Translations under genes and position numbers: made by a program
Shown here: positions 32,136-51,912 of the stretch, in pieces
Layout: the number at the start of each line of letters is the position of its first letter
Position numbering within the stretch: position 1 is the stretch's first letter
Notes under the pieces: model-generated
Seen by the model: only the letters and a program-made list of their open reading frames with translations
Database searches by the model: none
What the model was told of the DNA's origin: nothing
Assembly: GCA_002887195.1 (NCBI GenBank)
Contig: PJAB01000034.1
Location: forward strand, 1 to 56,625
Source: Chrysochromulina parva
Taxonomy: Eukaryota > Haptophyta > Prymnesiales > Chrysochromulinaceae
DNA length: 56,625 nucleotides
Direction: 5' to 3'

Positions 32136-32487
32136 CTAGCGCGCGGCGAGACCGTCCCGAAGTCGCGTACCGCCACGTCTCCATTTTCTCGGATGAATCT
32201 GTTGAGAGTGAACAGGCTACCGGGTAGACAGTGTAGGGAACCAATAAGGTCCGCACCTAAGCTCATGTAGGACCGCACTGAGCACTCCTCTCCTTTCGAT
32301 GAACACCTAATTAGGAAGTACGGGACTGTTCCCTCCCGGTCTTTTTACCGGTACGGGACTGTTTACCGGTACCGGTACATTACTGTACCGGTACCCAGTA
32401 CATCGGCCGACATCGAAGGAAGCCGAAACTTCCGACCGCGTGCCGCCCTCTATACCCACACACAGCGCGCGCGCGCGCGCGCCTGGC
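32136..32487. promoter_or_regulatory. Bidirectional promoter, NDUFAF8 / ion channel, with ACCGGT palindromes
   Basis: 352 bp between divergent ATGs. It holds two exact TTACCGGTAC 10-mers (32345-32354, 32363-32372), a duplicated GTACGGGACTGTT, and a perfect 12-bp inverted repeat (GGTACCGGTACA 32368-32379 / TGTACCGGTACC 32384-32395) with a 4-nt loop. A (GC)n run lies at about 32465-32482, just before the channel ATG. Confidence 0.6.
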
Positions 32488-35400
32488 ATGAGGGCAAGCT
32501 ATCGCACAAAAGCTATGATTGAATCCGCGCCACGATTTGCACACGTCATCGTCTTCGCCCTGATGGTGAGCGTCACCGATGCGCAGCCGCCACATCCGGC
32601 GGCACCACCAGATCCCGGGAGCGGCGACGACGACGGCGGCTCGGTTGATCCGCCTTCACCGCCGCCGCCTTCACCGCCGCCGCCGTCGCCGCCGCCGCCG
32701 TCGCCGTCGCCGCCGCCGCCGAATCGCCCCCCGCCGCCGCCGGATCGCCCCCCCCCGCCGCCACAAACGGCGGCACCACCAGATCCCGGGAGCGGCGACG
32801 ACGACGGCGGCTCGGTTGATCCGCCACCAACGGCGGCACCACCAACGGGAGCAGGCAGCGGCGCAGGAGGCGGTGGTCCTGGCCCCGGCCCTGGCCCGGG
32901 TCCTGGTCCTGGCCCTGGCCCGCCGGGACCAATCTGGTCGATTCTTTCGGGTGAATCGTATTGCGAGGTCACCTCCGATGGGTATTGCATCACCGATGGC
33001 CCTGGCAGCCATGGCAACCTCGAGGCTTGCACGATACGAGCGGAAGTGCCAATGACACTTCGATTCCTCGAGTTCAACACCGAGAGCGGATACGATTTTG
33101 TCACGATTGGAGGCATTGCTTACTCCGGCTCCGCAGCCCCGATGAATGTGCAAGTGTCCGCCGGAACACTCTTGACATGGTCAAGCGATGAAGCGGTCTC
33201 GCGTTCAGGCTTTGTGATCTGTACCACTGCTATTCCACCATCATCGCCACCGATGCCACCGTCACCACCAATGCCACCGCCACCACCGACATCACCGCCG
33301 ATGCCACCGGCACCGCCGGGGCCACCGGCGCTCCCGCCAATTCCACCGTCGCCGCCGCCTCAAAGACCGGGCCTCTGCTATCACAACGATGGGGAAAATT
33401 ACTGCTCGTTTATCGACGACGGCAGTTGCGACGATGGCGGGCCCGGTGCTGAATTCGACGAATGCGCCTTGGGCACAGACTGCAACGATTGTGGGATCCG
33501 CATCTTGTATTCCCCACCGTCGCCCGGATATCCGCCGCTCCCGCCGTTGCCAGCCGGAGCGCTCATCATTGGAGGCGTTCCCGTGGTGCGCGTCACCTTC
33601 TCCTTCCCCCCACGAAATGTTACACAGGAGGAAGTGTTTGAGTTCATGAAGACAGTGGGCAACGTTGCGCGCTGTGCTACCCCCCCAGTGCCTTGCCAAG
33701 TATCACGTGAGCTGACGGCAACCAGCCCGGAATTCCGTCGAATACGCTCAACGGTCCTTGCGAGCACTATGACCTTTCGGCTCACCTTCCCCGAGTCCAC
33801 CTTCAACGGCTCCCGTGGCTCGGCCGTCCCCGCCCCAGCGGGTGCGGCGCGCGCCCATGCGGCGCGCAACGCTCTCACGTCAACGCCACTCACCGCGCCG
33901 GCGTATTCGACGGACCGCACCATCACATTCACCCTTCGACTTGCCGGTGACGTCGCCGCGTTCACCGAGAGTGTGCGAGGTGAGATTACCAGCGCGATCG
34001 CGACCGCGGCGAGTGTGAATGCGTCTCTCTGCACCGAGACGTGCGAGTGGGCCTCCGATGGCGATTGCGACGACGGCGGTCCTGGCTTGCAGTACACATC
34101 CTGCGCCATCGGCACCGACTGCACCGACTGCGGCGTGCGCAAGCTGGTGGAACTGAATGTTACGTCGTGCAGCGTCGTGGCCTGTGGCACGGCCACCGGC
34201 GTCGTCGTTGCCGTACGTATCCGGACGCTCACAGCCAGTGCGACCAAGGTCAACTCGAGCATTTCAAATGCGATCAGGAGCCCGAGCCTCGCGACCCTCA
34301 TGCTCGCCAACGTCAACGTCACGGGCGTACGCCGTGCTCGACGTCTCGCGGCTTCTGTGATAGCAATCATGGCGATGCCCAACGTGATTGGCGGGCCCAA
34401 CGTGATAGGCGCATTCGGAATCACCAACCTACCACAAGCAACCATCACCTCCGCAGCTGTACCGTACTACAAGCCACCCTCCCCTCCGCCTGCGCCTCCG
34501 CCTCCCGCAGCACCACCGGGCCTGTGCTCGAACACGTGCGACGCCTCTGGCAGTGGGGGGACCCCGGGTGTGTGCAACGACGGCGCCTCTCCAGACCCTT
34601 TCCCTTTTCGGCAGCTCTGCCCGTTCGGCAGCGACTGCAACGACTGCGGCTCGCGCGACTTTTGTGTCACCTGCTCGCTCGAGTGTCAGAGGCGCAACAA
34701 TGCGCTGACCGACAGAAATCGCCAAAATGGGTGCATGGAGTCCATGTATGTCGACGCGGGTTGCGACCCCAACTGCAACAACCGCGAGTGTGGCTACGAC
34801 GCCGGCGCATGCACACAGAGCCAGATCCGGCCAGTGTGCATGGCTGAGCAAGATCTTGGTCGCATTGACTATAGTACAAAGCCGGAGGCACTCGGGCTCC
34901 TTGTGAGTGCAAGTGATGGCTCCTTCGAGTTCTTGAACAGCACGCTTTCCCCCGGCACCTCTACGCACGTCATGGGCCTCGTGCCGGTCGCGCTCTCGCT
35001 CAACCTCTCGCCCATCCGCCTGGTGCTGCAGAACGACTTCAACGAAAACTACATCTTCGCCGAGATGACGTACACGCTGCAGTGGGCCGACCCGCGCCTC
35101 GCTCGCTCGCCGTGTGCGGGCGCACTTTCGGGGATGCTCTCGCTCGACTTCGAGCAGGGCATGAGCCAAATTGCGCGCGAGGCGGCCCGCGCGATGCGCT
35201 CCAAGTTTTGGGTGCCCTCATTAGTGCAGACAGACGCCGTCCCTGGCTACCGTGGCCTCGACGACACCACCGATTTCAGTCTAGGTACGGAGACGATTCT
35301 TATAGATGGTGCGCCAGGGTCGAGAGATGAAGGGTTAAGGGTCCCCATCCCAGTGCAGCCTTGGCTCGATGGCTATGGCACCGAGCTGCCGGAGTCCGCA

Positions 35401-37158
35401 CCATCAGCAACGCCCTCGGTCGTCCTCCCGATTGCCAACCAATTCACGTCGGGGCCACGCAACACATCAACATGCGTCGGCTGCGCCTCCTGGACGGGCG
35501 ACATTGAGTTCCAGCTGCTCCAGTCGCACCACATCTACTTCTTCTATCCCTTTGACCAGCAGGAACTCAGGTTGACCGTAGAAGTGGCCGGTGCCTGGCT
35601 GTACGGCTGTGTGGGCACGGGCGCGGACTCGCCTGTGCTGGCCGCGATGGGCCTCACGGAGGAGAACAAGGACACGGTGTTGCTGCCGCCGACGGCCGAG
35701 TGGTACTTGAACGGACCCCTGTCCGAGTCGGTGCGTGTGGCGCATCCATTCGAAAACGGAGTGGAGCAGGTGCACCGATGCGAGGTCGTTATGTTCGCGA
35801 ACCGCAACCCGACCGTCTTCATCTTCCGCTCGCTGGTCACGACGATCATTGTCGTCTTCGGCTCCTTGCTCACGGCGATCTTCATGCATGCCGAGGAGCA
35901 CAGCGGCGACCGCGCGGCTGTGCTGTACATCGCCTTCCTCATCTCGCTGACCAACATGGCGACGACCAACCTGGGCCTCGGAAAGGTCTCCACGCTGCTC
36001 TGGTACGACCTCTTCAACCTTTCGCAGCTGCTTCTCTCGCTGGTCGCGGTGGCCGAGACGATGGTGGTTCACCTCCTCTTCAAACATAACGCGGGTAAGC
36101 TCGCCGCGCACATTGACTCTGTCTGCCGGCAAACGCTGCCGGCCCTCTACATCGGCGTGACGACGGGCATCTTCGTCTACGGCATGGGCTGTGGCCGAGT
36201 TCTTTACACGATGGTGGGCTATGCGATCATGGGCATCTTCATCATCACGATGATCCCGGCAACCCTGTTCTTTGTTTGGGCCCGGCAGGGGCGCCTGGGG
36301 CGCTGGCAGGCAAAATGCATCAAAGAGCTCAAGAAGGCCGATCCCGACGATGGCGAAGAGTACGACAAGACAGTGGGGAAGGTCTTCCACGCCTTTGACG
36401 TGGACGAAAGTGGCGAACTTGACACGGACGAGTTGCGCGACTTGTTCGTTGCCCTCCACCCGAAGATCTCTCGCGATGACCTGAGCTCTTGCATTCGGTG
36501 TATGTCTGCGTACGTCGACCCGAGGGGTGTGCTTACGGAACCCAAGTTTCTCGACGCGCTCATCGAGGGCGAACGTACACTGTCGCAACGCATCAAAGAG
36601 CGCAACGCCAGCACCAAGGTCCCTATGCTGCGGATGAAGACCCGTGACCTCGGACAATTTCAAGAGGTGCCCATGATGGCCATCGCCGACGATGAGCGCG
36701 AGAAGGTCCTCGAGGAGGATGTCATCCGCAGGCATCGCAAGATTGGCACGCCTGACACGGATGCCTCGCCGCTCGTGACGATGCCACAACGGGCGGAGGT
36801 GGGTACGGTGTCGTCCACTTCTACAAACTCTTTGGGCGGGGCAGACCGTTCGCACAAAGCGCAGTTCGCCAAGGGCGACAAGGTCCTCTACACTACTAAG
36901 GCCTTTGGCCCGCAGATCCGCGCCGAGATCAAGCGGGTGCACACAGAGACGACGCCCCCTTGCTACACAATTCGATATGAGGGCCTTGCCATCGAGAAGC
37001 AGACGGAAGAGCACCAGCTCACACTTGCCTTTCCGCCGCTGCCGCCGCCGCCAAGCGGCAGTCCAGCTAGCGCGCTAGCGCTTGAAGCTTCACAAAAGCT
37101 GAAGGAGCAAGTCTCCGAGCAAGTGTCCAATCAGTCGCAAGAGGCAAGACGAGTTTGA
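32488..37158 (+). CDS. Chimeric Cys-loop-like pentameric ion channel with EF-hand
   Basis: 1556 aa from ATG 32488 (ATG 32515 also possible). A signal peptide (FAHVIVFALMVSVTDA) leads into SPPPP wall-protein repeats. Next comes a CUB-like module (about 32945-33235) and three LNR-like units of form C...DGG...C..G.DC.DCG (about 33370-33510, 34027-34140, 34522-34660), the third followed by a further Cys-rich block. A ligand-binding-like region (about 34930-35810) ends in YFFYPFDQQELRL, the FPFD core of the Cys-loop, here without the loop-forming cysteines. Four TM helices follow (about 35815-36290; FRSLVTTIIVVFGSLLTAIF is M1). After M4 is a canonical EF-hand loop DVDESGELDTDE (36399-36434), then an SH3/Tudor-like patch (GDKVLYTTKAFGPQIRAEI). 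No intron. A Ca2+-modulated surface channel is the inference; ligand unknown. Confidence 0.78.
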   Translation: MRASYRTKAMIESAPRFAHVIVFALMVSVTDAQPPHPAAPPDPGSGDDDGGSVDPPSPPPPSPPPPSPPPPSPSPPPPNRPPPPPDRPPPPPQTAAPPDPGSGDDDGGSVDPPPTAAPPTGAGSGAGGGGPGPGPGPGPGPGPGPPGPIWSILSGESYCEVTSDGYCITDGPGSHGNLEACTIRAEVPMTLRFLEFNTESGYDFVTIGGIAYSGSAAPMNVQVSAGTLLTWSSDEAVSRSGFVICTTAIPPSSPPMPPSPPMPPPPPTSPPMPPAPPGPPALPPIPPSPPPQRPGLCYHNDGENYCSFIDDGSCDDGGPGAEFDECALGTDCNDCGIRILYSPPSPGYPPLPPLPAGALIIGGVPVVRVTFSFPPRNVTQEEVFEFMKTVGNVARCATPPVPCQVSRELTATSPEFRRIRSTVLASTMTFRLTFPESTFNGSRGSAVPAPAGAARAHAARNALTSTPLTAPAYSTDRTITFTLRLAGDVAAFTESVRGEITSAIATAASVNASLCTETCEWASDGDCDDGGPGLQYTSCAIGTDCTDCGVRKLVELNVTSCSVVACGTATGVVVAVRIRTLTASATKVNSSISNAIRSPSLATLMLANVNVTGVRRARRLAASVIAIMAMPNVIGGPNVIGAFGITNLPQATITSAAVPYYKPPSPPPAPPPPAAPPGLCSNTCDASGSGGTPGVCNDGASPDPFPFRQLCPFGSDCNDCGSRDFCVTCSLECQRRNNALTDRNRQNGCMESMYVDAGCDPNCNNRECGYDAGACTQSQIRPVCMAEQDLGRIDYSTKPEALGLLVSASDGSFEFLNSTLSPGTSTHVMGLVPVALSLNLSPIRLVLQNDFNENYIFAEMTYTLQWADPRLARSPCAGALSGMLSLDFEQGMSQIAREAARAMRSKFWVPSLVQTDAVPGYRGLDDTTDFSLGTETILIDGAPGSRDEGLRVPIPVQPWLDGYGTELPESAPSATPSVVLPIANQFTSGPRNTSTCVGCASWTGDIEFQLLQSHHIYFFYPFDQQELRLTVEVAGAWLYGCVGTGADSPVLAAMGLTEENKDTVLLPPTAEWYLNGPLSESVRVAHPFENGVEQVHRCEVVMFANRNPTVFIFRSLVTTIIVVFGSLLTAIFMHAEEHSGDRAAVLYIAFLISLTNMATTNLGLGKVSTLLWYDLFNLSQLLLSLVAVAETMVVHLLFKHNAGKLAAHIDSVCRQTLPALYIGVTTGIFVYGMGCGRVLYTMVGYAIMGIFIITMIPATLFFVWARQGRLGRWQAKCIKELKKADPDDGEEYDKTVGKVFHAFDVDESGELDTDELRDLFVALHPKISRDDLSSCIRCMSAYVDPRGVLTEPKFLDALIEGERTLSQRIKERNASTKVPMLRMKTRDLGQFQEVPMMAIADDEREKVLEEDVIRRHRKIGTPDTDASPLVTMPQRAEVGTVSSTSTNSLGGADRSHKAQFAKGDKVLYTTKAFGPQIRAEIKRVHTETTPPCYTIRYEGLAIEKQTEEHQLTLAFPPLPPPPSGSPASALALEASQKLKEQVSEQVSNQSQEARRV

Positions 37159-37411
37159 TGGGCCAGAAGATCCTCGACGCGCTTGGATGCGTTTGAGACG
37201 AGAGTGCAACATCCATGCGGGGAATGCGGGCTGGTGATTCATTCCATGGGCGGCGAGGCGTGAGTGGCGGGCTCACTGTCACTTCTGTCGTCTGTCTACA
37301 AAAGTGACAGTGAGCGGGTTGGGGTTCTGAGGAACGATGTTCATCGTTGCGATAACTATGCCGTGCAGCATCGGTGCCAGGGCCACAATCAGTCGAGTGG
37401 GTGTGCTGTTG
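37159..37411. other. 3' flank of the channel gene
   Basis: Contains a perfect 14-bp inverted repeat (see separate entry) and then the left target-site repeat of the retroelement. No coding potential seen. Confidence 0.6.
37271..37315. terminator. Perfect 14-bp hairpin downstream of the channel gene
   Basis: GCTCACTGTCACTT (37271-37284) and its exact reverse complement AAGTGACAGTGAGC (37302-37315), loop 17 nt. It begins 112 bp after the channel stop codon, so it probably lies in the 3' UTR or just after it. Role unknown (RNA processing or stability are possible); the terminator label is only a placeholder. Confidence 0.55.
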
Positions 37412-37425
37412 GCTGTTTTCAATAA
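37412..37425 (+). repeat. Target-site duplication, left copy
   Basis: GCTGTTTTCAATAA, identical to 46931-46944 and immediately followed by the (GTAA)n tail of the retroelement. Confidence 0.9.
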
Positions 37426-37449
37426 GTAAGTAAGTAAGTAAGTAAACAA
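37426..37449 (+). repeat. (GTAA)n 3' tail of the retroelement
   Basis: Six perfect GTAA units on the plus strand, i.e. (TTAC)6 at the 3' end of the element. Tetranucleotide tails instead of poly(A) are known for several LINE clades. Confidence 0.9.
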
Positions 37450-37584
37450 CGCCAACAGGCAGCGCACACGTGGCGAGGGGGTCTCCCCCAGGCATACTAA
37501 GCGTGTACGGTGTTCAACAACACGAGAGTTGAAGCTGACGAAAGCCATCAGCCAACCCTCGGTTGCGGCTCGAGAGCTGCGGGG

Positions 37585-39093
37585 TTACACAGGTGCCCTT
37601 CTCGCCCGCTCTCGTAGCCGAGCGCTCCATTGCTTGAGCTCCATCTCTCTCTCCTGCCTCTGTCTCGCTCCATCTCGCTCCGCGGCGCGCCGACTAGGCG
37701 CCCGCGTCCCGCGCGTTCCAAACAGCTCGCTCTCGAGCTGTCTCGCCTCGTCGCGCAAGTCCTTCGAGAGGTATGTGACGCTGACCCACGATTCCTCCCA
37801 GAGGTCTCCATCGGAGTCTTCACCTTCCCATTCAACGAGCACGTCCAATGGCCGCCCACGCCGACCCTCATGTCGCCGCACCGCCATGATACGTCGAACA
37901 GCCCATCGCCCTCCATCATCCGCCTCCTGCCCGGCAACGACCGGGCCCATGGCGACGCGTTGCCGAACGTCCCGCCGCGCGCGCTGCACTTCTTGCCGAC
38001 GACGCTTCACGCGCTGTGGGTCCCGGCGCGGCTCGATCTCGATCCGAATGACCTCGCCCACGTCCATCGCCACCTGCCCACTCAACGTGTGAGAGGACGG
38101 AGCCTGTTCCGGTCCATAGAAAAACTGTCCGACCTTGATGAAGTGACCGAGTCGCAGGTTGCCGATGTCCAGTGCCTTCCATTCACCAGCGCTCAACGTC
38201 TGCTTGACGTCAAGGAGAGCCCGCAGGCCCTCATGACGAAACTCGAACCTCTCTTCGGTCTCAGCCTCTGTAAGGATTGCCCACCTAGTGCCATCTGCTA
38301 GGCATGCCCACCGCCGCATGCCTTCCCGCTGCGCCGCAAGCGCCCGATTCCGCCGAATCCTTGCCTCCCTCTGGAGACAAAGGTTGAACGCAGTCCAACC
38401 GCCAGCGCGTAACCATCGCCGCCAGGCACGCCTCCTTCTCGCCCGCAACGCCGCCACGCCCTCACGCGCTCTCTCGACTTCCTGCTGCCTCCCCGTCGAC
38501 GCCGCAAGTAACTGCTCGCAGAGCAACTCGCGGACGGGTCCGTGCGAAACACGCCTGCCGCTTTTACCAAGTCCTTGCGCGAGCGCCATGCGCCACGCCA
38601 CCCATACTCGCAGCAGCAGCCATTCGCCCGGCCCGTTGTTCGCCTGCTCATCCCCGACCTCGTCAAGCCTCCTCTCGACTTCCTTACGCAAGCGTCGCCT
38701 TTCGCCAGTTGTAACTCGCATAACAAACTCCTTGGCGAGCCGCAATTCACGCAAAGCCGCCGCCCGACGAACCGTCGTATGGAAAAGTGCTCGACTCCAG
38801 GATCCGAAAATCTTATCGAGAAGCCGCAAGTCGCCAAGGCGCCCCCAGAACGCTCTCCTCCCCTCCTCGCAGCGCTCCTTACCCAGCTTCTGCAGATGAC
38901 ACCCGCTCACCACCATTTCCGTCAGCGCGAGCCTCCAACGTCCGCTGCCGTCCGCTCCCGTACCCGAGATACGAACGGCACCAGCCGCTCCCGCCCGGAG
39001 CAACTCGGCCTCCCAAGCCTCTGTGACCCCGCGCTGGATCCGGTTCCGTAAGCTCTGCTGCTGAGCGACCTGCCACGCGGGATCGGGTAGTCG
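37585..39093 (-). CDS. Retroelement ORF2: chromodomain frame (-1 relative to ORF1)
   Basis: Open from after a TGA at 39094-39096 to the stop at 37585, overlapping the end of ORF1. It has no ATG at its 5' end, so it is probably reached from ORF1 by frameshifting or was once fused to it. The first residues after the likely crossover (DPAWQVAQQQSLRNRIQRG) continue naturally from the RNase H tail of ORF1. The next 300 residues are Arg/Leu-rich helices (RRLRKEVERRLDEVGDEQ). Near 37900-37770 lies a chromodomain-like segment (WAVRRIMAVRRHEG...LDVLVEWEGEDSDGDLWEESW), a methyl-lysine-histone reader that can guide integration. The C-terminus is basic. Confidence 0.7.
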   Translation of the reverse strand, partial: RLPDPAWQVAQQQSLRNRIQRGVTEAWEAELLRAGAAGAVRISGTGADGSGRWRLALTEMVVSGCHLQKLGKERCEEGRRAFWGRLGDLRLLDKIFGSWSRALFHTTVRRAAALRELRLAKEFVMRVTTGERRRLRKEVERRLDEVGDEQANNGPGEWLLLRVWVAWRMALAQGLGKSGRRVSHGPVRELLCEQLLAASTGRQQEVERAREGVAALRARRRRAWRRWLRAGGWTAFNLCLQREARIRRNRALAAQREGMRRWACLADGTRWAILTEAETEERFEFRHEGLRALLDVKQTLSAGEWKALDIGNLRLGHFIKVGQFFYGPEQAPSSHTLSGQVAMDVGEVIRIEIEPRRDPQRVKRRRQEVQRARRDVRQRVAMGPVVAGQEADDGGRWAVRRIMAVRRHEGRRGRPLDVLVEWEGEDSDGDLWEESWVSVTYLSKDLRDEARQLESELFGTRGTRAPSRRAAERDGARQRQEREMELKQWSARLRERARRAPV

Positions 39094-42000
39094 TCATCCA
39101 CCCCAAACTTATCGCACATCACGTCAACCCATTCGTTGACCGGCTCGCCCACGTGCGACGTCTGCCAAAGGAGCACCAAGGCCGCAACCCGCCGCCGGAG
39201 GCGCTCAAAGTGCTCGAGCAGTTCAGCAGCGAGTCGGTCTCCACGCGCGCGAGCGCCAAGCCGCCCAAAACGGAGCATCGCTCGCACCGGCGACGTGGCA
39301 TCAAAGACCATGATTACCCTCTCATCCGTCCCTCGCACAGTTGCGTCCGTGAGCGCATCGAGTTGCGCTGCAAGTTCGGCTATGTAGTTGTCCTCGTTCA
39401 CGTCCTCCTCGCATATCCGCCCGCCCAGTACGTGCCCCTCGTGGTCAATCGCGGCTCTCGTAGCAATTTTCACCGTCCCTCCTTCCGTCTTGACCTCACG
39501 CCATCCTCCATCCAAAGTGTAGATTCGCGTCGCCTTGATGCGCGCTGACCACGTGGTAATTTTTTCCCACAGGTTGCGCTGCGCGGCCAATTGGACATGC
39601 GTCGCCTGCCTCTTGTTCCCATCGCCCGGAAAGACTTCCACATCGCCAAGCGCCAGCCGAGCGCGTGCAACGATCTGCACCGCCGGATCGAGCTGAGCGA
39701 GCTGCCGATGATCAAGTCTCCAGCCGTCCCGGGAGCACAGATAGCCCTCCGTGTCGAAAATGAACTGCGAGCGTAGCTCGCACGCCCGTTCCATCCAGCC
39801 CTCGAGAAACCCCTGGTCATCGACGTCCGAGCGACACAGCCAAGAAGCTTCGCCGCCCCGTGGCTCCTCCGCGCTGTCGATGTCACAAAACACTCGCCCC
39901 CCACGAGCGTCCGCCTGGATATCACCGCCTCCGACACACCATTCCTCGGCTTCCGGTCTTTTGATGCCTGGAAAGGCGTTCCGCAGCGCGGACTCCCAGT
40001 CGACTGGCGTTGGCGCAACCCCGCGCTTGAGTTCACCGAGCGCCTGTCGGATGGCGCCCTGCAGTTTGGGCACGTTCTCCGCGTCCGTCATCACCGTGCT
40101 GCTCAGCCCACCGCCCTCGAGCCCGACGCCCCCGCCTCCAACGCAAAGCCCTCGCTGATCCCACGCTCTGTACGCTTCGCGCTCCGGTACCGCGCCAACG
40201 TCAAGACGCTCCTCGACGCCAGCCACTGTTCTGTCCCATTTAGCCCTAGCGCCTGCCGTCAGCCACGGATAGAGCCGACGCGCCTCCTCAAATGACATCA
40301 ATCTAGGGCCCTCGTGCATCGCTCCCCATGCATACAGCTGCCCTGCAACCCGAATCCGTGCGTCGAGTAATCTAGGCGCCGGCTCGATACCTAGGCCGCC
40401 GCGCTGTTCCGGTTCAAAGAGCGGGATTGATTCCAGCGACCGAAAGTGGGGCCGACCTTCATGCAGCGGATCACATGACGCCGGGCTGCGTACCCATCTC
40501 CAGTTCTCCCCGGGCGGCTTGTCGCCCTGCAAAAGACTCGAAATAAACATAAAGGTCTCCCCGAGGTACCTCCGCCGGCCTCGCAGCTGCCTCTCAAGGG
40601 CGCTCGTGAGATGGCGCCATGAAAACAGTCGAGGGTCTCCCTGCGCCCCCCATCTCGACAGGCTGAGAGCCAGCGCCGATCGAGCCGCCGCCCGTTGAGA
40701 GGTATCCGCGGTGTCCGCAAGGGCTCTGGTGAAGGATACATAGAAAGAAGCGCAACCTATCGCCCATAAGTGCCGCCGCCCTCCAGCTGCGCCGCCCCCG
40801 CCTTCGTAGAGCAAACAAACAGGTGTGGTCGCGTCCCGTCGCGCCTTTTTGTTGAACATCCCCCTCCACTCCTTCTCAATGGCCTCCATCCACTCGAAAG
40901 GATAGTAAACCGTGCTGCACTTGAACCCTGCGAGCCCTTGAAAGAGACCGTTCGAGACCAAGATCATATCGCGTCGGGACGGCTTGTGCATGCGAGCCAC
41001 GCGGCCAATTGCAACCCGCAGCTGCTTCTTTAGCGAGTCGGCCGCCGCCTCATCCCCGCCCATCGCGACGCGCAGAACGCCTAGATGTTTGTAGGCCTCG
41101 CTCCGTGAGAGAGTTGGCACACGGACCCCATCCAGAGTAACCAGTTGAGGATCAGGGATGTCGCACTCCCCACCCTGCCCGTCACGAAACACTCCGGTAA
41201 CCACGGTCTTGAGCTTGCCCTTGATGCCCAGTTTGGACCCGGAGATCGGAACCCAGACGCTCCATATCGCCCATGCTCGCCTCAGATCAACTTCGCTACC
41301 AAACGTCCCCGCCCAGTCGTCCGCGTAGGCGAGGCTCGCAATCGCTCGGATGCAACCCTCCTCATCCTCCCCAAAACCAAACAACTGAACCCCATGCACG
41401 TGTAGTTTGATCGCCCACAGGATGGTGTTGAGGATGATTTTTGCCCGATCCGGCGAGAGCACTTCCCCCATCAATGCTCCCATGTGGTTCCTGAAGGAGG
41501 CGCTGAGCCCAATGGAGGTGTCAAATTGACACTCGACCGCCTCCGCAGCAACCGCACGTCCAGCCCCGTAGATCTGTCCGACCAACTCAATGACCTGAGG
41601 GGGAAGCCCGACCAAGAGCTCGGCTACCGTGAGAGCCTCGCGATCAATGCGCGGGAAGAACGTCGCCAAGTCAACGTATAGTATCCACAATGATTGTTGC
41701 TGCCGCTGCGCCTGTTGAATCACGGCAGCCAGAGGGAGCCCGGCGTCGACAGTGCCATACCCGGGCAGCCAACCACACTGCTCCGACCGAAGCCTGCCTG
41801 TGATAAGTCGATACGCCGTCGCCCTCACCATATGCATAATTAATTTCATATCTTGCGCCATAAGAGCGATTTCCCGCCGCTCTGAGATGAGGGCGGGGTT
41901 ACTGGGAGGCGGCTTCGTGAGAAGAACATAGATGACCTTTCGCCACGACGGCGGAAAATCGCCCCCTCGCAGGTCCGCCATGAGGCAGTCATAGAATGCT

Positions 42001-45000
42001 CTCTGTATCTCCCGGTCGGCATGTATGAGCAGCTCTATGGAGAAGCCGCCATAACCAACCGCCTTTCCCCGTGGCACCCTCTTGAGTACTTGCAAGAAGA
42101 CCGGGAACGTGAGCTCCTTGGTGAGCTCCCACGCACCACCGTCCCGTCCACGTAAGGTCTCATACGTCGGGCAGAAAACCTTACAGAATGCCTTGAACGC
42201 TTCGATGATCGCTGGAGTAGATGAGAGACCCTCAACGAGCCGATCGCCCTCCCGCGCAAGGCCATTGAGAAAGGCATCTGGATCATCTGCCGCGAGCGTC
42301 GGGGCGCTGTGAACGTCATCTCGCGGATGAAATTGGTCGAACGCCAGGCTGGTGCGTTGCGGACGGATTGCCTTCCACGCTCTCATCGCAACCTGCGCCA
42401 AGTCCTTGCTGCCCTTGCCCTCGACGATCCCCAGAGACAGTTCTCTGAGTCTCTTGTCATCCCGCTGCTGCCTGCGTACCAATCTCCGATTCGCACTCGT
42501 CCAGCACCGTCGGCACCGCTTGATGATCTTGGACCAACACACCTCGTCTCCCGCCCCCTCGTATCTCTCTCGAATGAGCCAGAGCCGAGAGTGGTAGTTG
42601 AAGAGGCCACCGCGCACCTCGTGTGGCGCAAGACCCCGATGTCGGGCCGCATATGCCTCCTGAAGCCATCTTCGCCACCTGTGTGCTGTCTCCAAAGGGC
42701 ACTCCTCCCACCGCCTCCGCGCCTCCACAGCGGCCAGCTCAGCCACCCTCCGGAGCGAGCGTACCGCCTCGGTCGTTGCATGCATCACGCCTCGCGCCGA
42801 AAGAAGATCCTCATAGGCGCCACCCTCACGCACTCGATCGCGATAGTTGTCTTTGGCTCTAGCATCGCCTCTCGGCAGTGCAGATCGAGGCCTCTTCTCC
42901 CCTCTCAATTCCAACTGCGGAATTTCTCTCGAGAAGGTGACCCACGCATGGTCTGAGAGCGGTTTGGCAGATCCCGTCGCTAGACCATCGGAGTTGAAGG
43001 CGAAGTCCACCACCGTCCGCCGCCACCACCCGCACTCCGACCCTATTGTCACAGCTCCATCCAGCATGGATCCATAGTCATCGGAGTCGCTTGTCTCACC
43101 AGCGTCGCCGCCTTTCCGAGTCCAAACAACCAACGGCTGTGAAGCTGCTGGTAAAACGTATTCCGCCCCCGGCTGCGAGATATAGTCCCGGAAAGCCCGA
43201 TCGTTGGCGTTGAGCACCGCCCGCGATGATCGCCACGCCTCCTCCGCCACATAGTTGAAATCACCCACGACGAGACATCCTTTCACGGTCTGAGATGGAT
43301 CGGCCGCCCACGTGTACGTGGCCTGCAGCTGGCTTGCGAAACTCGAGGCACCGCTGTGATGCAGGCCATGGACCGCGGCAATCCTCGTCTGCAGTTGCTC
43401 TTTTGTCCCACGCCCTTTGATCCATACCCCCAGAACCCGCTCCTCGAGCCGTACGTGACGCTCGATGGTACAGGTCGCTTGCTTGACGAGCACGGCGATG
43501 CCGTTTGTAAAGGATTCGCCGCTTTGTCGTTGCTCGCGTTGACTCCCCCCCTCGCCAACCATCCAGCGAACGACGTAGCCGATCTTTTTCGCCATAGCGC
43601 GTAGTCCAAAGGTCCCAGCTGTGTACGCATCCTGTGAACCCATAACCTCGAGAAGAAAACAGACATCCACGTCTTCCTCCTGCAACCTTCTCATAATCCA
43701 CAGTGCCTTGGCCCGAGACGCTTCACGGGCAGGACATGCGTCCGCGTGGAATTCACGCGCGTTCCAAAGCGCTACGTTGAACATCTCTGCAACCGTGTTC
43801 CCACGAAGCGCTCTCATCCGCCTCTTCCATGCTTTCCTGCTGAAATGCCATCGATGCCGTCGTCTCCGCAAGCTGCTGCCTGAGTCCGCGAAAGTGCCGT
43901 ATGCCGTGCCTGCCGTCCACCTCGGCCTCGGAGAACGTTGCGACCGTGGCACGCGGACGCACGCAATCGACTTGCCTCCTCGCCGCCCATTAGAATCTGT
44001 GTTTGGCCTCGCTCGTCTTCGAGAGTGCACCTGCTGGTTGGGCAAATCCCATCTCGGGCTCGGCTCAGGCTCCGGTTCGTACTGCAAATCCACCTCAGGC
44101 TCAGGCGTCGGATCTGGCTTCGCAACACGCCCTCGCACGCAGTTCCAAAACACGTCTCCAATGTCCTTGCAGCTCGTCGAAAGCTGCGCCATTGTGCCCA
44201 ACGGGTGCATAAACCGAGAACCCTGACGAGCTCCATAACACTGCAGCGCGACCGTATCGTAGCAATTGAGCGTACCCATACCGTCATATCGTAGGCCCAC
44301 CGTCGCGCAGCACGCCGTCGTAGACTCACTCGCATCGCATCGACCGACAGAAAGGGCCAAAACCACGAGCGTCGCGTGGATTACACGCGTGAATGCGCGC
44401 CGACTGCTCGCAGCGTTACCAAACTTGCCGTGCCCATCTCGACGCGCTGTGCCGAGCACCATCGTCGCGTCCCGAGACTTGGTCGTCGATAAGGGTGTAG
44501 ACATAGACATAGACATAGACTCGACACAAAGTATGCCGCCTAATGGTGTGCCGTCTAATGCCCCCGTCGACGCAGTATGTCTCTGACTCTCGACCACGTC
44601 TGAGACCCTAGGCCCTACTTTGCTCCTGCCGAAGCCCGGCGCGCTCGAACGCTCTTCGCCAATGCGACATGTGACCCTCCGCCCCTGCGCGACGAGCTGA
44701 TCCCCGCAGGCGCGGTCACGGGTAGCTGCTCCTCGTTCGCCTATCCTATTGTCGGCTGTGGCTTTGCCAACTAGCCCGATCGAGTCGCGCTCGACGCCAT
44801 GTGCTGCGTGTTCGCAGCCGCCCGCTCTAATCCCGATGACCGTCCCGTCCTCTTGATCCCTGTTGAGTAGCACATCATCTTCACAGTGAACTTCGGCACC
44901 AACTGTCGCAAAGAAAGTAGCCCCGTCCGCTTTGTCAATCGCCGATGTCGGCAGACCTGCGCGTGCGAGCGTAGCGAGGGCGGTGACTCTTTCATGCATG

Positions 45001-46901
45001 GTCATGGCCTGTCGCAGCACCGCACTCTGCCTCCGTGCCAGGGCCAAGGCCGCCTCCACATACCCCGCCGAGCCATCCTTCAGCTCCTTGATCTGGGCTC
45101 TCTGCACGAGCATCTCCCGCTTGACGTCGCCCATAAACGCGTGCAGGGCTTGTGTGAGCTGCGCCGCCTCGGCCGTAAACCCGAGTTGCATCTGCTGCTG
45201 CTGCTGCATCACCTGCTGCATCTCGCCCATCTGCTTCTTGAACGACTCCTCAGTGTCCGCGAGCGCCTTGACGTGCGCCGCCTCGGCGTCAACCAGCGAC
45301 TTGACGTGCGTCGCCTCGTTCTCGCTCATCAGCTTCTGCATGTCGCCCATCGCGGTGGCGTGCTGGTTCTGCATGTCGGTGATCACCGTCGCCTGCTTGT
45401 CCATGAGCTCCTGCATGCGAACCGTGTACGCAGTGAACTTGGTGTCCTGTTCCACGAGCGTGTCAGCGTTCAGCTTGATCTGTTTCTCGAGTTCGCCTTT
45501 GAGCTTCTTCATCTCCTCCGAGCTCTTGGTGTTCATCTCCGCCGAGATCGCAGCCACACGGTTGAGGCCATTGCGAACACGCGCCGTGCCCAGGTCGCCC
45601 GACCAGATGATACGGACCTCGGCTCCCGACGCCAGCTTCGTCGGAATGCCCTTAACTTCCGCTGCGTCATTGCGCGAGTCCTTGCAGAGCGCTTGCAGCT
45701 TCTTCTCGATGAGCTTCTCAGCGGGGAGCTTGATGCGGAGCACGAGCTTGATCAGCCCAGTGGCCTCCGTGTCCATCTCGGCACGCGGGATCACCATGAG
45801 CACATCATCGCCGAGCTCTGTGAGCACGGCCTCGAGCCCTTCGCCATCCTCGCGAAAACCCCGCTTGATGTTGAAAATACCCGCCTGGGGAGCGACGTAC
45901 ACCTCGAACGAGGCCTGCAGCTCCTCCGTTGATACGAGCTTCTTCATCTCCATCTTGATGCCGGCCGGGAGGCGAAGCAGATCGACCCCCTTCGCCGTCA
46001 GCTCGACCGTCTTGTCCGTGGGGTACACGGCCCATCCATCGTCACGCTCGGGTCCGCGAACTCCAATCGCCTGAAGAGCATCCTGCAGTGACTTCTTGAA
46101 CTCGGTGAACTGCTGATCCTGGGCGTCCTTGTCCTTAGGGTCCGCTTCCTCAGAGATGAACTCGGTCCGAAGCGCCATAATGAGCGCGTTGGTGACGTGA
46201 GGCAGTGCCCACGAGGCAAACCCTAGGGCCATGGCGTCCGCGCACCACTTGAGCTTCTCCTTGTGCCGATCCACGCTGCGCTCGAAGGAGATGTCGAACT
46301 CGCCCGCAGTGCCGGTGTCAAAGAGCCCCGCGATATACTTCTGCCATGGGAGGCTGAGCTCGACGCCTTGCGTCAAGTTGTGAATGCGCTGGTAGACGTC
46401 GAACATGTGAATGATCAGGGTGGCCAACGCACCGACGCATGCCGACTTGGGCATGACGAGCATAGCCTGCGTGTTCTGAAGGCCCTCCTTCATGAGGAAG
46501 AGGTCATTGTGCTTGAAGCCATCAAGAGACTTCTTCGATGTGATCTTGACAAGTGCAGTCGGCATCATCTCGATCGGCGAAGTCGTGAGGAACGCCTCGA
46601 GCTGCGGCTCCGCGCCGATCACCTTGATGGTGTTCGCGACGATGTTCTCGGACGTGTCGGTAATGCAGCCGCTGCGCGCAATCACGAGGTGCGATTCCCG
46701 AGTGTTGCATTTCTCCGATGTGGAGGGCGTAGATTCATTTGTCTTGTGCGCGGCCGGAGGTGACGATGAGAAGAGCGCGCGCTTGATTGGGCCACCAATG
46801 AGGATGGGTGGGGCGTCCTTCAGAGGGGTTGCGATCGCCATATCGGCAGTTTGAGCGCCAGGAGCAGGGTGCGACGCGGCCATGTTATCCGGAAGAGACA
46901 T
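38922..46901 (-). CDS. Retroelement ORF1: Gag-like, APE endonuclease, reverse transcriptase, RNase H
   Basis: 2659 aa. Residues 1-about 640 are Gag-like, with a coiled coil and poly-Gln (about 480-590). Residues about 690-1035 are basic and low complexity, with a hydrophobic and Cys-rich island (about 838-925). An APE-type endonuclease spans about 1039-1320: NVALWNAREF, LLEVMG, VVGDFNYV near 1213 and SDHAW near 1316. The reverse transcriptase is about 1590-1960: GKAVGYGGFSIELLI, LYVDLATFFPRI, and the catalytic YADD near 1858. RNase H lies at about 2455-2600 with the acidic residues in TLDGG, AELAAQLDAL, VFDATS and NEWVDVMCDK. All enzyme landmarks look intact. The 65 residues after RNase H are out of frame with the better continuation in ORF2. 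Confidence 0.88.
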   Translation of the reverse strand: MSLPDNMAASHPAPGAQTADMAIATPLKDAPPILIGGPIKRALFSSSPPAAHKTNESTPSTSEKCNTRESHLVIARSGCITDTSENIVANTIKVIGAEPQLEAFLTTSPIEMMPTALVKITSKKSLDGFKHNDLFLMKEGLQNTQAMLVMPKSACVGALATLIIHMFDVYQRIHNLTQGVELSLPWQKYIAGLFDTGTAGEFDISFERSVDRHKEKLKWCADAMALGFASWALPHVTNALIMALRTEFISEEADPKDKDAQDQQFTEFKKSLQDALQAIGVRGPERDDGWAVYPTDKTVELTAKGVDLLRLPAGIKMEMKKLVSTEELQASFEVYVAPQAGIFNIKRGFREDGEGLEAVLTELGDDVLMVIPRAEMDTEATGLIKLVLRIKLPAEKLIEKKLQALCKDSRNDAAEVKGIPTKLASGAEVRIIWSGDLGTARVRNGLNRVAAISAEMNTKSSEEMKKLKGELEKQIKLNADTLVEQDTKFTAYTVRMQELMDKQATVITDMQNQHATAMGDMQKLMSENEATHVKSLVDAEAAHVKALADTEESFKKQMGEMQQVMQQQQQMQLGFTAEAAQLTQALHAFMGDVKREMLVQRAQIKELKDGSAGYVEAALALARRQSAVLRQAMTMHERVTALATLARAGLPTSAIDKADGATFFATVGAEVHCEDDVLLNRDQEDGTVIGIRAGGCEHAAHGVERDSIGLVGKATADNRIGERGAATRDRACGDQLVAQGRRVTCRIGEERSSAPGFGRSKVGPRVSDVVESQRHTASTGALDGTPLGGILCVESMSMSMSTPLSTTKSRDATMVLGTARRDGHGKFGNAASSRRAFTRVIHATLVVLALSVGRCDASESTTACCATVGLRYDGMGTLNCYDTVALQCYGARQGSRFMHPLGTMAQLSTSCKDIGDVFWNCVRGRVAKPDPTPEPEVDLQYEPEPEPSPRWDLPNQQVHSRRRARPNTDSNGRRGGKSIACVRVPRSQRSPRPRWTAGTAYGTFADSGSSLRRRRHRWHFSRKAWKRRMRALRGNTVAEMFNVALWNAREFHADACPAREASRAKALWIMRRLQEEDVDVCFLLEVMGSQDAYTAGTFGLRAMAKKIGYVVRWMVGEGGSQREQRQSGESFTNGIAVLVKQATCTIERHVRLEERVLGVWIKGRGTKEQLQTRIAAVHGLHHSGASSFASQLQATYTWAADPSQTVKGCLVVGDFNYVAEEAWRSSRAVLNANDRAFRDYISQPGAEYVLPAASQPLVVWTRKGGDAGETSDSDDYGSMLDGAVTIGSECGWWRRTVVDFAFNSDGLATGSAKPLSDHAWVTFSREIPQLELRGEKRPRSALPRGDARAKDNYRDRVREGGAYEDLLSARGVMHATTEAVRSLRRVAELAAVEARRRWEECPLETAHRWRRWLQEAYAARHRGLAPHEVRGGLFNYHSRLWLIRERYEGAGDEVCWSKIIKRCRRCWTSANRRLVRRQQRDDKRLRELSLGIVEGKGSKDLAQVAMRAWKAIRPQRTSLAFDQFHPRDDVHSAPTLAADDPDAFLNGLAREGDRLVEGLSSTPAIIEAFKAFCKVFCPTYETLRGRDGGAWELTKELTFPVFLQVLKRVPRGKAVGYGGFSIELLIHADREIQRAFYDCLMADLRGGDFPPSWRKVIYVLLTKPPPSNPALISERREIALMAQDMKLIMHMVRATAYRLITGRLRSEQCGWLPGYGTVDAGLPLAAVIQQAQRQQQSLWILYVDLATFFPRIDREALTVAELLVGLPPQVIELVGQIYGAGRAVAAEAVECQFDTSIGLSASFRNHMGALMGEVLSPDRAKIILNTILWAIKLHVHGVQLFGFGEDEEGCIRAIASLAYADDWAGTFGSEVDLRRAWAIWSVWVPISGSKLGIKGKLKTVVTGVFRDGQGGECDIPDPQLVTLDGVRVPTLSRSEAYKHLGVLRVAMGGDEAAADSLKKQLRVAIGRVARMHKPSRRDMILVSNGLFQGLAGFKCSTVYYPFEWMEAIEKEWRGMFNKKARRDATTPVCLLYEGGGGAAGGRRHLWAIGCASFYVSFTRALADTADTSQRAAARSALALSLSRWGAQGDPRLFSWRHLTSALERQLRGRRRYLGETFMFISSLLQGDKPPGENWRWVRSPASCDPLHEGRPHFRSLESIPLFEPEQRGGLGIEPAPRLLDARIRVAGQLYAWGAMHEGPRLMSFEEARRLYPWLTAGARAKWDRTVAGVEERLDVGAVPEREAYRAWDQRGLCVGGGGVGLEGGGLSSTVMTDAENVPKLQGAIRQALGELKRGVAPTPVDWESALRNAFPGIKRPEAEEWCVGGGDIQADARGGRVFCDIDSAEEPRGGEASWLCRSDVDDQGFLEGWMERACELRSQFIFDTEGYLCSRDGWRLDHRQLAQLDPAVQIVARARLALGDVEVFPGDGNKRQATHVQLAAQRNLWEKITTWSARIKATRIYTLDGGWREVKTEGGTVKIATRAAIDHEGHVLGGRICEEDVNEDNYIAELAAQLDALTDATVRGTDERVIMVFDATSPVRAMLRFGRLGARARGDRLAAELLEHFERLRRRVAALVLLWQTSHVGEPVNEWVDVMCDKFGVDDDYPIPRGRSLSSRAYGTGSSAGSQRLGRPSCSGRERLVPFVSRVRERTAADVGGSR

Positions 46902-46930
46902 TAATCAAGGGGGACGAGGGTTCGTCCCCT

Positions 46931-46944
46931 GCTGTTTTCAATAA
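46931..46944 (+). repeat. Target-site duplication, right copy
   Basis: GCTGTTTTCAATAA, 14/14 identical to the left copy at 37412-37425; it lies 29 bp upstream of the ORF1 ATG on the element strand. Confidence 0.9.
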
Positions 46945-47307
46945 TTAAGCCGGACCTACACGTCGTTTCGGAGGGGAATGACGCTTTGACGCTTGTTTGC
47001 CTGGGTACCCCCCCTCGCACGTGTGCGCTGCCGTCAAAAGCGTGTTTCACTTAAGACTTATTTACTGGAGGGGAGCCGCGGCCGCGGCGGAAGTTGTGGC
47101 GGCGGCGGTGCGGGTGGCGGCGGCAGTGCCGGTGGTGGTGGGGGCGGAGAGGGCGGCGGCGCGCAGGGGGCGGGCGGCTGCCGCGGCGAGGGCGGAGGAG
47201 GAGAGTGCGGCGGCGGCCGCATTGGCGGCGGCCGCGTTGGCGGCGGTGTGGGCGTCGGTGCCGGAGGGCGGGGGCGGGACGACGAAGGCACCGACTCATC
47301 AACCGCG
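46945..47307. other. 3' flank of the WD40 gene, GC-rich
   Basis: Between the retroelement and the WD40/coiled-coil stop. At about 47085-47280 the sequence is GGC/GGT-rich and would encode polyproline on the minus strand (stop 47058) if read in another frame than the WD40 gene; see findings. Confidence 0.5.
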
Positions 47308-50300
47308 TCACCGCTTTGGAGGCGGCGCACGCGCGCGCGCGCGCGCTGCCTGCTCGACGAGCCGCTTCTCCTTCTCCTTCGTCATCTGCTCCTCGTCTTC
47401 GCTCTCGGCGAACTCATCGTCCTCGCTCACCCAAGAATCGAGCCTCTCCACCGCCACCTCGGCACCAAATTGGCATACGACCTCATCAACGAGAGTCCCG
47501 AAACAGCCCAGCAGTGCGAGCTCCACGCGCACGAGCTTGGCGCTCTCCTCCGCCACCACCGCCTTCTCAATCGACCACAGGAAAGGCTCGAGTGGCGTCG
47601 GCTCCGCACTCTCGAGTGCCTCGTCCACAATCCCCCACGCGGTCGTCCTCATAAAGTCGATGATGTTCTTGTGCTCCGAGAGCGCACCTGCCTGGTCCCG
47701 GCCCAGGTAAAAGTGCGGCGAGAAGATGCGCTGCTCAATAGGTACGGCGCCGATGCGAGCGGAGCCCGTACGCACCGCGAGCAGCTCGGAACGCCGATGG
47801 TCGGTGGGCGGCTGCAGGTAGTACACGAAGACGCCGGAAGCCTTGTGCTGGGGCACGGCGGACGAGCAGCCGACGGCGATGCGCTTGCCATCGGAGGTGA
47901 CGGCGAGTGAGTCGAGTGAAACGCTCATGTCACGACCGAGAGGTCGGATGGGGGGACGTACCTGCACGCCGGAGCCGAGGCTATAGATGCGCACTGCATT
48001 GTCGAGGAGCAGAAAGACGTAGTCGGTGCCGGGTAGGTCGAGGTACGACGAGACGACCATTTTGACCGGCCTCTCGGCCTGCTTCCCCTGTTGCTTGAGC
48101 AGCACTCTCGTCTGTGCATCCCATCCACCTTGATCCCCCAAAGGGATAGTCACCTTGAGCTTCAGAAACTCGCGCTGTCCTTTGGTGACGCTCAGCTGCT
48201 GGATGCGCATGTGCGGGCCCTCCGGCAGGTTATCAAAGAGAGTGAGGGTCACGAGGACTGAGCTCGTCGGGTTGAGGCAGGCGGTGATGAGAGAGCCCTT
48301 GACCCTCTTGTGCGCGTACCGGCACGACGCGTGGCGTAACAGCGTGCCGCGATTGTCACGGTCGACGATGGTCATCTCGCACGTGTGATTCTCCTCTATC
48401 GGGTCACCGTAGAAGCTGCGCACCGTGCCATCGTCGAGCCGTTGCGTGCGCCACGGCCGCTCAGGCAGTAGCTTCAAGTGGGCGTTGACGAGCCAGTCGT
48501 GCTCTCGCGACGCACTCGCGAACGCATCCGAGTAGCCGGTGATGTTGCCCGCACTCCGGGGAGCTGGTTCCGGCTCCTTGCCCTTCTTGCCCTTGGGCGC
48601 GAGCGCAACGGAGTCTCCGATGGCGCCACGCTGCAGGCCGGCGGGAGGGAAGTGGACTTGCTCTGTGCTCGGCTCGGCGGCGTTTAGGCGCACCGTGAGG
48701 CCGAGCTGCATGGACTTGGCCGGACGGAACCATCCGTAGTCGGAGTAGTTCTCCTTGCGGTACGGCCACTCTAGCAGCAAGCCGAGCTCGTCGACGGTGA
48801 TCATGAGCGAGTTGTTGTGCACGAAGCCGACGAACACGAGGGGCGCCGGGTGGCCGGTGAAGTACTCGCGTGAGATGAGAGAAGCAGGGAAGAGCGGTGC
48901 CAACGTCTCTCCTGGGCCTCCTCGCTCGCGCGAGCTCGGGCGCGGGCCGCCGCTCTTGGCGCGCTCCTTGCCGCGACCGGCGCGAGCCGCGGCAGCCTCA
49001 GCGGCGTCGGGCTTCTCGCCGACCCTGCGCCTGGCGAGCACCTCCGCGGCCTCCTCTTCGGTGCCAAGGGGCAAGGGGCGGCAGACAGGCGCGGAGTACA
49101 CTGAGCGCTCGGCCCCTGGCCGGTTGCACTTGGCAAGCAGCCCGCCGCGCATCGCCACGACAAAGGCGGGCTGCGTGCCCATGAGTGTGAACGACGGATG
49201 GAACTCGGCTACCAAAGGGTATACCTCATCCAATTCGCGCTTGGGCCCTGCGGGCCGCAGTGCCGACGCAGCCACCACCTGGTTGGTGGCAGCGGCGGCG
49301 GCGCGCCTGGCCTCAGCTTCAGTGTCCTTGGGCGTCGGGACGGCGGCCGTCCCCTTCTTGGGCGGCGATGGCGGGGCTTGAGGCAGTGCGTCGGGTGCAG
49401 CATTCTCTGCCTTCTTGCGGCCTGATCCGAAGAAGCCGCCCGTCTTTTTGGTGGCCGGCTGCAGCGGCTGCGGCATCGGCGCCTCGGCAACATCACGCCC
49501 CGGGTTTCCTTTTCGGGGCGAGGAAGGCGGCAGTGTCTCCCCGAGTGAGGAGAGGGCTTTGCCGCTGAGGGCGCGGGCGCGGGCCGCAGCCTCTTCCATC
49601 GCCGCGTCATCAATCATCAACTCGGCTTTGACCAGGTGAGTGCGAGCGAGCACTTCGACCAGCAGATGCGGCCGCCGCTGCTCCCCCGACCCGCTCACCT
49701 TTGCCGACTGGCCCACAACCTGGTCGGAGAGCTTCTTGGGCAGCGCCCCTTCCCAAGCCTCTTGCGAGTTCTCATTCGCAACTTGCATGGCATTCGCCGC
49801 CTCGGCCCAAGCGACCTGCGCCGTCTCGAGCGCCTTGGCGGCACCCTCTTTCTGTTGGGCCTCAGGCGTACTCAACTCCTGCGCCTTTTCCTGCGCCTCG
49901 AGATAGGCCACCTGAGACCAGAAGGCTGTAGCTCGATGCTGCGCAAGCCCCACCAGAGAGTTGACCATGCCGGTGACCGACCAGACCCTAATGAAGCCCG
50001 CCGCGTCGGTGGTGAGCACCTCGGACGAGTCGAACGACCATCGCACGCTAAGCACGTCATTCGGCCGGTCGCACGCAACCCGAGGGATCCGGCGGATCAA
50101 CTCCGCGCCCGGCCGGCGCTCGGCGCAGTGGTAGATGAGCAGCCCGCCGCCGCGCGTGCCAACGGCGAGCATATGGCACTTGGGAGTGAACTGCACGGCC
50201 GTCGGCTGCTGCGACGGCTCGCCAGCCTCGGCAAGAAAGCTCTCGATCAGCTCGGTCCCCGCCCAGTACGCCCCCTCCTTGTCAAGGAAGACCTCTCGAA

Positions 50301-50839
50301 TCGTCTTGGAACATTTTGGAAGATCGGGCGCGTCCGACATGGGAATGATCACCACGCCACCCTGACCGTCATCCGAGTCCACGTCGTCCGAGGAGGAGGA
50401 GGAGTCGGCATCGTGGATAGTCTTGCGCGGCCGGCGGCCACGCCACTTGGTCGTCAGGGGCGCATGGTGCTTATGAATCTTGGACGGGAGCTGCGATCTC
50501 GAACGCGCCATGTCGTTGTACATGCGTGGGAGCTCCGCCGCTGGCTCGGCGTCGAGCAAGCCGCCCGCCGCTACGCGCCCTATCGAGCGTAGCAGGATGC
50601 GCCGGGCGAGGCTCGAGCACAAATCTCGCTCCGCCAGCGCCTGCCGACACGCCGCATTCGTCTCCTCGCGTACCAGATCCGTCAGCATGCGCGTGGCGAC
50701 CTTATTCACGCTCGTGGGGTCGACCACCGCCTCCTCTCGCAATCTCGCTTTCTCCGCCGAGCGCGCGATGGCGACTGCGAATTCCACATCGGCCTTCACG
50801 TCCTCGGCCTCGTCCTCACCATCTGCGCCGTCCTCGTCT

Positions 50840-50883
<44 letters not shown>

Positions 50884-51912
50884 CTCCGAGCTCGAGCTTC
50901 GCCGTTCAGCAGCCTTGGCCTTCGCAATCTCCCTCGCAATCTCCCTCCTTTGGCGCGCCTCGCTCGCCAGCCGGCGCTCAAGCGCCTTGTGCGAGCGCTC
51001 CCAGTTGGCGTATTCCTGCCGGAGTTGCGCCTCGTCGGGGCCATGCTCGCCTGCGCTGCTGATCTGCCCGATCATCTCACTGACGAGGTCGTTCGCCACC
51101 GAGCGCGACACCTTAACAGCTTCCAGCTGCTCCGTCTTGTAGGTCTGCGGTCCCAGCCAGCCAGAGTACCCGCGCCCACCCGCGCCCTTACGGTTTTCGG
51201 CCAGGCTCAGCGTGAACGCCTTCTGGCGCGCGTGCAGCGACGCCTGCTGTTGCTCGAGGGTGGCCGCGTACGCACGGCGCACCTCCGTAGCGCTCTCGAG
51301 CGGGTGCACGTGGCTCGGATCTTCGTCAGTGTCGGCCAGCTCCGCCTCGCCGCCGCTTGCCGCGCCCGCCGCTGCCTTGCCGTCCAGGCCGCCCTCCTCG
51401 CCCACACCATCGGCCGACGAGTCGTGCGCGATGGCCGTGGCCGCCGCAAGCTTGTCCTTGTGCTTACGGGCCAGCTCGGTGCGCCGCGCCTCGAGCGCCT
51501 GCACCTGCCGTTCCAGATCGAGGCGCTGCTCGTTGAGCGTTTGGCGATCAAGTTGCTCCTTCAACCGCTGCTCCGACAGCTGCTGCTTGCGCCGCGCCAT
51601 CGTCAGCTCAGCACCGCGCGCCTCCTGATCCTCGACTCCTGCGTCTGGCTTGACCGAGGTACTAGTACGTGGCGGCCGCGCGACGGCGTAGGAGCGCAGC
51701 ACGTCCTCGGGCAGCGAAGAGCCCCCCGCACCACCGACACCAATGCCTGCTACGAGCGCAGCCTCACCCTTGCTGAGCGACGCCACACGCGCCTTGTAGT
51801 GCGCTGCCTGCGCCTCCAGTGCCTCGGTGCGCTTAGCGACCTCAAGCTGCTTTTCACGCGTCGCCGCGAGCTCGCGCTGAGCTGCAATGCGTTCTGCATC
51901 GAGATCCGCCAT
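47308..51912 (-). CDS. WD40 and coiled-coil protein, unknown
   Basis: 1534 aa from ATG 51912 (MADLDAERIAAQ). Residues about 1-150 are a long charged coiled coil (AATREKQLEVAKRTEALEAQ). An acidic (DE)n run lies near 350. A first propeller part has VQFTPKCHMLAVGTRGGGLLIY and VRWSFDSSEVLTTDAAGFIRVWSV (about 610-690). A second follows after a Ser/Pro-rich linker (LVFVGFVHNNSLMITVDELGLLLEWPY; ITACLNPTSSVLVTLTLFDN; SLDSLAVTSDGKRIAVGC). The C-terminus is acidic then basic. The coiled coil plus split propeller suits axonemal or ciliary WDR proteins (inference). The last codons (ARARARAPPPKR) sit on a (GC)n run, so the end may shift. Confidence 0.6.
47329..47346. repeat. (CG)n dinucleotide run
   Basis: About eight CG units just inside the 3' end of the WD40 gene, encoding RARARA. 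A one-step change would move the reading frame into the polyproline frame below. Confidence 0.85.

Follow-up and report, generated by a model that had tools for sequence, protein, structure and literature searches.

The window analysed here (56,625 nucleotides of contig PJAB01000034.1 from the haptophyte Chrysochromulina parva, positions 1 to 56,625 of the forward strand) contains a non-long terminal repeat (non-LTR) retrotransposon of the long interspersed nuclear element (LINE) type that carries its own chromodomain, as an initial annotation made from the sequence alone had claimed. The element lies at 37426-46931 and measures 9506 bp; it and all of its features described below are on the minus strand. 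These limits follow from the 13-bp target-site duplication TTATTGAAAACAG, which flanks the element on both sides (46932-46944 at the 5' side, identical to 37413-37425 at the 3' side) and occurs nowhere else in the window. The 5' boundary is shared with the five additional genomic copies that matched the element's 5' end, whose first base corresponds to 46931 or 46932 in the window (query 30 or 29), and the limits first proposed (37426-46930) lie within one base of those defined by the duplication. The 3' end consists of a (TTAC)n tail (37426-37447). As to LTRs, no direct repeat of at least 25 bp was reported within 34000-50000, and no integrase family was found among the Pfam matches (E ≤ 1) of the element's two long reading frames.

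Frame 1 (38922-46901, 2659 amino acids [aa]) and frame 2 (37585-39003, 472 aa), which overlap by 82 bp, correspond to the 8-kb reading frame and the second frame described in the initial annotation. Frame 1 encodes an N-terminal domain, a coiled-coil-like stretch, an endonuclease (EN), a reverse transcriptase (RT) and an RNase H, while frame 2 encodes the C-terminal region with the chromodomain. The EN (aa 1040-1330, 42912-43784; motifs WN, GDFN and SDH) is of the apurinic/apyrimidinic endonuclease (APE) type, matching Pfam PF03372 above the cut-off (E 4.4e-6, aa 1046-1318), and lies upstream of the RT in the same protein. The RT (aa 1640-1990, 40932-41984), with its YADD motif at 41316-41327, matched Pfam RVT_1 below the cut-off (E 3.1e-5). 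When the family RT profile was compared with the PDB, 10 of the 13 matches, all at E ≤0.04, were R2 and LINE-1 proteins (three of these are named there only as reverse transcriptases, and we take them to be R2 or LINE-1), and the other three were unrelated proteins at E ≥0.19. Both enzymes had thus been named correctly from the sequence. The RNase H assignment (39036-39584) is less firm: all residues of the D/E/D/H/D motif are present and several relatives are annotated as ribonuclease HI by their source database, but the profile match to RNase HI is weak (E 0.12). Homology in frame 1 stops near aa 2610, and approximately 39036-39071 lies beyond the break discussed below. A non-LTR RT, an APE-like EN upstream of it, a 13-bp duplication and a (TTAC)n tail, with no LTRs found, place the element among the APE-type LINEs.

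The C-terminal domain (core at 37717-37911) is a divergent chromodomain. In the window copy it matched Pfam Chromo below the cut-off, both when the whole frame was searched (E 0.1) and when the domain was searched alone (E 0.0075), and a second copy from the host genome (C324) gave no Chromo match at E≤0.5. A 35-row profile of the family was more informative: against the PDB its best matches were CDYL (E 4.5e-5) and Swi6 (E 2.2e-4), followed by HP1, MPP8, Rhino (4quc, labelled RE36324p, is the Rhino chromodomain) and others, and the best 17 of 61 matches were all chromodomain proteins. With an E limit of 1, nine of the 35 profile rows matched Pfam Chromo, the best of them at 2.7e-5, and one relative, P0051, exceeded the Pfam cut-off (34.5 bits vs 25.1, E 1.9e-8). 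The structure model (predicted local distance difference test [pLDDT] 78) has strands at residues 17-25, 34-40 and 53-56 and a helix at 62-76, and the first 20 Foldseek matches to it were all chromo or chromo shadow domains with probabilities up to 0.98, none of the Foldseek E values being as low as 0.001.

The separation of the chromodomain from the rest of the protein appears to be particular to this copy. Relative P0061, which shares 91% identity with frame 1 across 2620 alignment columns, has residues 2607 to 2871 across the interval where the window has 68 nt (39004-39071) instead of approximately 789, a net loss of approximately 721 nt that is not a multiple of three. Host copy C324, which is 77% identical to the window from RT to RNase H, encodes RT, RNase H and chromodomain in a single 1838-aa frame, though it is itself damaged, lacking aa 1455-1630 and containing stops and frame changes further upstream. 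Three relatives (P0002, P0006 and P0022) have uninterrupted predicted proteins, 2947-3214 aa long, in which EN, RT, RNase H and chromodomain follow the N-terminal domain, itself cut in P0006. On these comparisons the two-frame layout is damage to this copy, the separate second frame resulting from a loss of approximately 0.72 kb together with a frame shift. The element is therefore not complete, contrary to what had been proposed.

Linkage of the chromodomain to the retrotransposon enzymes extends well beyond the window. We collected 84 relatives by two protein searches, each of which scored only the nearly 8000 candidates with the most shared words; they are known from predicted protein sequences rather than from DNA. 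Domain presence was judged with a domain profile (i-E <1e-3, no speed filters), for which 15 of the 84 relatives supplied seeds and so match by construction. The chromodomain was found in 62 of the 84, in 61 of the 73 whose protein continues for 500 aa or more beyond RNase H, and within one predicted protein together with EN, RT and RNase H in 42 of the 84. Ten of the 22 relatives without a domain match do not have 500 aa after RNase H. Of the other 12, P0061 and P0024 stop shortly before the domain's place, P0035 and P0039 fall below the profile threshold and have weak Pfam Chromo matches (E 0.022 and 0.0082, respectively), and P0037 has a similar stretch by eye; no chromodomain was seen in P0055, P0056, P0078-P0081 or P0083. 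Four proteins (P0053, P0060, P0063 and P0067) have a second chromodomain in tandem. SET domains were also observed in two predicted polyproteins: in P0060 (2605-2718, Pfam E 7.3e-7) the SET domain follows the two chromodomains, and in P0050 (44-158, E 3.6e-9) it is N-terminal and could represent read-in from an adjacent gene.

Within the host genome, the family's chromodomain occurs at 15 places on 13 contigs (E≤0.001, window copy included), five of which span most of the domain. The existence of further genomic copies with the chromodomain frame, in frame with the enzymes in C324, thus agrees with what the initial annotation had expected of a domain belonging to the element. Other LINE-like loci of the host with long open frames had no Chromo match at E≤0.5, indicating that the chromodomain marks this clade and not all host LINEs.

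Codon differences between the window and C324 also show that the chromodomain is under purifying selection, like RNase H. In this comparison, in which synonymous differences are near saturation, the ratio of nonsynonymous to synonymous substitution rates (dN/dS) was 0.064 for the chromodomain, 0.049 for RNase H and 0.095 for EN; the RT value (0.012) is rough, since dS was 5.3. The 353 codons preceding the chromodomain had a ratio of 0.139, the 38 codons following it 0.25 and the stretches before EN 0.25-0.34; dS was not computable in two linkers.

Two other explanations of frame 2 have to be weighed against a domain of the element cut off by damage. A designed frameshift arrangement would account for the 82-bp overlap and, by its nature, would not appear as one protein in a protein database. 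However, P0061 and C324 both read straight through, with more than 260 residues between the matched parts where this copy has 68 nt, and the loss of approximately 721 nt is not divisible by three; we regard such an arrangement as very unlikely. Even less credible is an origin of frame 2 as a host gene, or gene fragment, unrelated to the LINE beside it. Its position in a different frame in the window would fit such an origin, but the domain lies within the target-site duplications, its counterparts in C324 and in many relatives are part of the reading frame that encodes RT and RNase H, and it has 15 locations in the host genome; on these grounds we reject this explanation.

Short copies of the element's 3' end bear on its mobility. 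The final ~85 bp of the 3' untranslated region (UTR) are present at many places in the genome: a 23-base motif from the 3' UTR occurs 39 times including this copy (its reversed control not at all), and at least 42 matches to the 3' end were found (40 of 88 candidates scored), 14 of which begin at query 386-389, their starts lying within four bases. We examined ten short copies of ~90 bp (L055-L064), chosen with starts at query 380-394 and corresponding to window 37432-37515. Each of the ten has flanking duplications of 13-16 bp, compared to a longest repeat of 8-12 in 100 shuffles of each, and six have starts that fall within two bases of a common point. These observations support a mechanism in which target-primed reverse transcription starts from the (TTAC)n tail. 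The copies themselves are either a tiny passenger resembling a non-autonomous short interspersed nuclear element (SINE) or truncation products for which the base of the 3' structure is the favoured end point.

That structure (37440-37515) is predicted to comprise an outer 8-bp stem enclosing a hairpin, followed by a second small hairpin, with weak z-scores. At the opposite end, a 20-nt hairpin with an 8-bp stem and a 4-nt loop (46910-46929) is seen in the sequence and in the predicted fold of 46880-46935 (z -1.74; 9 of 200 shuffles equally good). In the remainder of frame 1, a conserved N-terminal domain (aa 90-440, 45582-46634) was delimited by profile matches in relatives, of which 7 of 84 have it; since it had no PDB match by sequence and its structure model had a pLDDT of 39, the label 'Gag-like' given to it in the initial annotation is unsupported. 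A coiled-coil-like stretch (aa 450-640, 44982-45554) was recognized by eye from the sequence, and between it and EN lies a hydrophobic stretch followed by a Cys-rich motif (aa 850-960, 44022-44354), with a counterpart by eye in P0003 and P0007 and not in P0022. The element is bordered by two convergent long open frames (window 32440-37158 and 47308-51933), whose Pfam matches are weak EF-hand and LNR, and weak WD40-propeller, respectively; it therefore seems to have inserted in a gene-dense stretch.

Our data are best explained by a damaged APE-type LINE whose relatives encode a long polyprotein ending in a chromodomain, and we think it likely that this domain tethers the ribonucleoprotein to nucleosomes and biases insertion. 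Under this scheme, the element's RT would recognize the structured 3' UTR, the endonuclease would nick target DNA, target-primed reverse transcription would proceed from the (TTAC)n tail and RNase H would remove the template RNA. The C-terminal chromodomain would most likely tether the ribonucleoprotein to nucleosomes, probably via a methylated histone tail, and this tethering would bias the choice of insertion site. Docking on chromatin would be the simplest reading of the chromodomain's role. The host offers suitable counterparts: its genome has 46 Chromo matches above the Pfam cut-off and one Pre-SET match, indicating that it has chromatin readers and likely a histone methyltransferase. A separate observation is that many of the host's 48 Pfam Chromo matches lie within open frames of 1000-3000 aa (at C434, C829, C29, C11, C1108 and others).

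The aromatic cage with which chromodomains hold methyl-lysine is retained at two of its three positions. With cage positions placed in the chromodomain alignment as we presume from HP1, the window domain has W, W and E, the third residue being Glu, and so lacks the canonical three-aromatic cage. Position 3 is aromatic in 1 of 68 aligned instances and a gap in 12, and all three positions are aromatic in 1 of the 68. Chromo shadow domains and the chromodomains of cpSRP43 bind partners other than methyl-lysine, and the domain could similarly have kept the fold without the reading function, binding RNA, DNA or a partner protein instead, for example to hold the ribonucleoprotein together. We consider this doubtful, since cage positions 1 and 2 are aromatic in 64 of the 68 instances, the cage of P0051 reads Tyr, Trp, Trp by eye, and the best sequence matches include the histone-reading chromodomains of CDYL, Swi6 and HP1. 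It also overlaps in part with the tethering model, which permits tethering without a methyl mark. A broader proposal is that there is a deep, widespread clade of LINEs with chromodomains, sometimes in tandem, fused to their integration machinery, to which the P0060 lineage has added a SET domain, and that these elements read, and sometimes write, the histone mark at the insertion site as an independently evolved LINE counterpart of chromoviruses built on target-primed reverse transcription; this we offer as a tentative extension, still short of an even chance.

APE-type LINEs with RNase H include I, R1, Tad, LOA, Ingi and the L1 elements of plants and oomycetes. As these are described, our element resembles them in its EN-RT-RNase H order, target duplications and simple-repeat 3' tail, and is set apart by a long single polyprotein with a C-terminal chromodomain. 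A partial survey of open papers, without preprints, Repbase reports or most subscription journals, found no chromodomain-bearing LINE. Among LTR retrotransposons, chromodomains were gained repeatedly (PMC5348765, PMC5006619). Chromoviruses and Chronos (PMC5348765) likewise carry a chromodomain in their polyprotein that is proposed to steer integration, but they use LTRs and an integrase, whereas the element here has endonuclease-primed parts, with neither LTRs nor an integrase found. In the dictyostelid Skipper elements, canonical chromodomains and diverged ones (cage residues 1 and 3 changed) pair with different integration sites (PMC5006619); Skipper elements, however, are of the LTR type. 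Celine, a centromeric LINE of poplar, is comparable as a LINE with a chromatin-defined niche, but in the parts of the report we draw on, none of the domains in its proteins resembles the CRM chromodomain (PMC11288735). Our short copies recall LINE/SINE pairs, for example SINEX of Chlamydomonas with RandI/Dualen tails (PMC3747384), in which short non-autonomous copies share a LINE's 3' end and simple repeat; unlike SINEX, they hold little besides the ~90-bp 3' end. In another haptophyte, Tisochrysis lutea, 14 families of LINEs were classed as close to Tx1 within the L1 superfamily, with no chromodomain mentioned in the text available to us (PMC5963040).

LINEs and chromodomain-bearing LTR elements are already known; what appears new, judged from the papers surveyed, is a LINE polyprotein that ends in a chromodomain. 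How LINEs without sequence specificity choose their sites is an open question, and a chromodomain that is part of the same polyprotein as EN and RT provides a direct, removable handle on that choice. If P0060 truly is a LINE that can both read and write chromatin marks, that would be remarkable. From our analysis, the chromovirus solution may have had a second origin in an unrelated integration machinery, and these LINEs may choose their landing sites by docking on chromatin.
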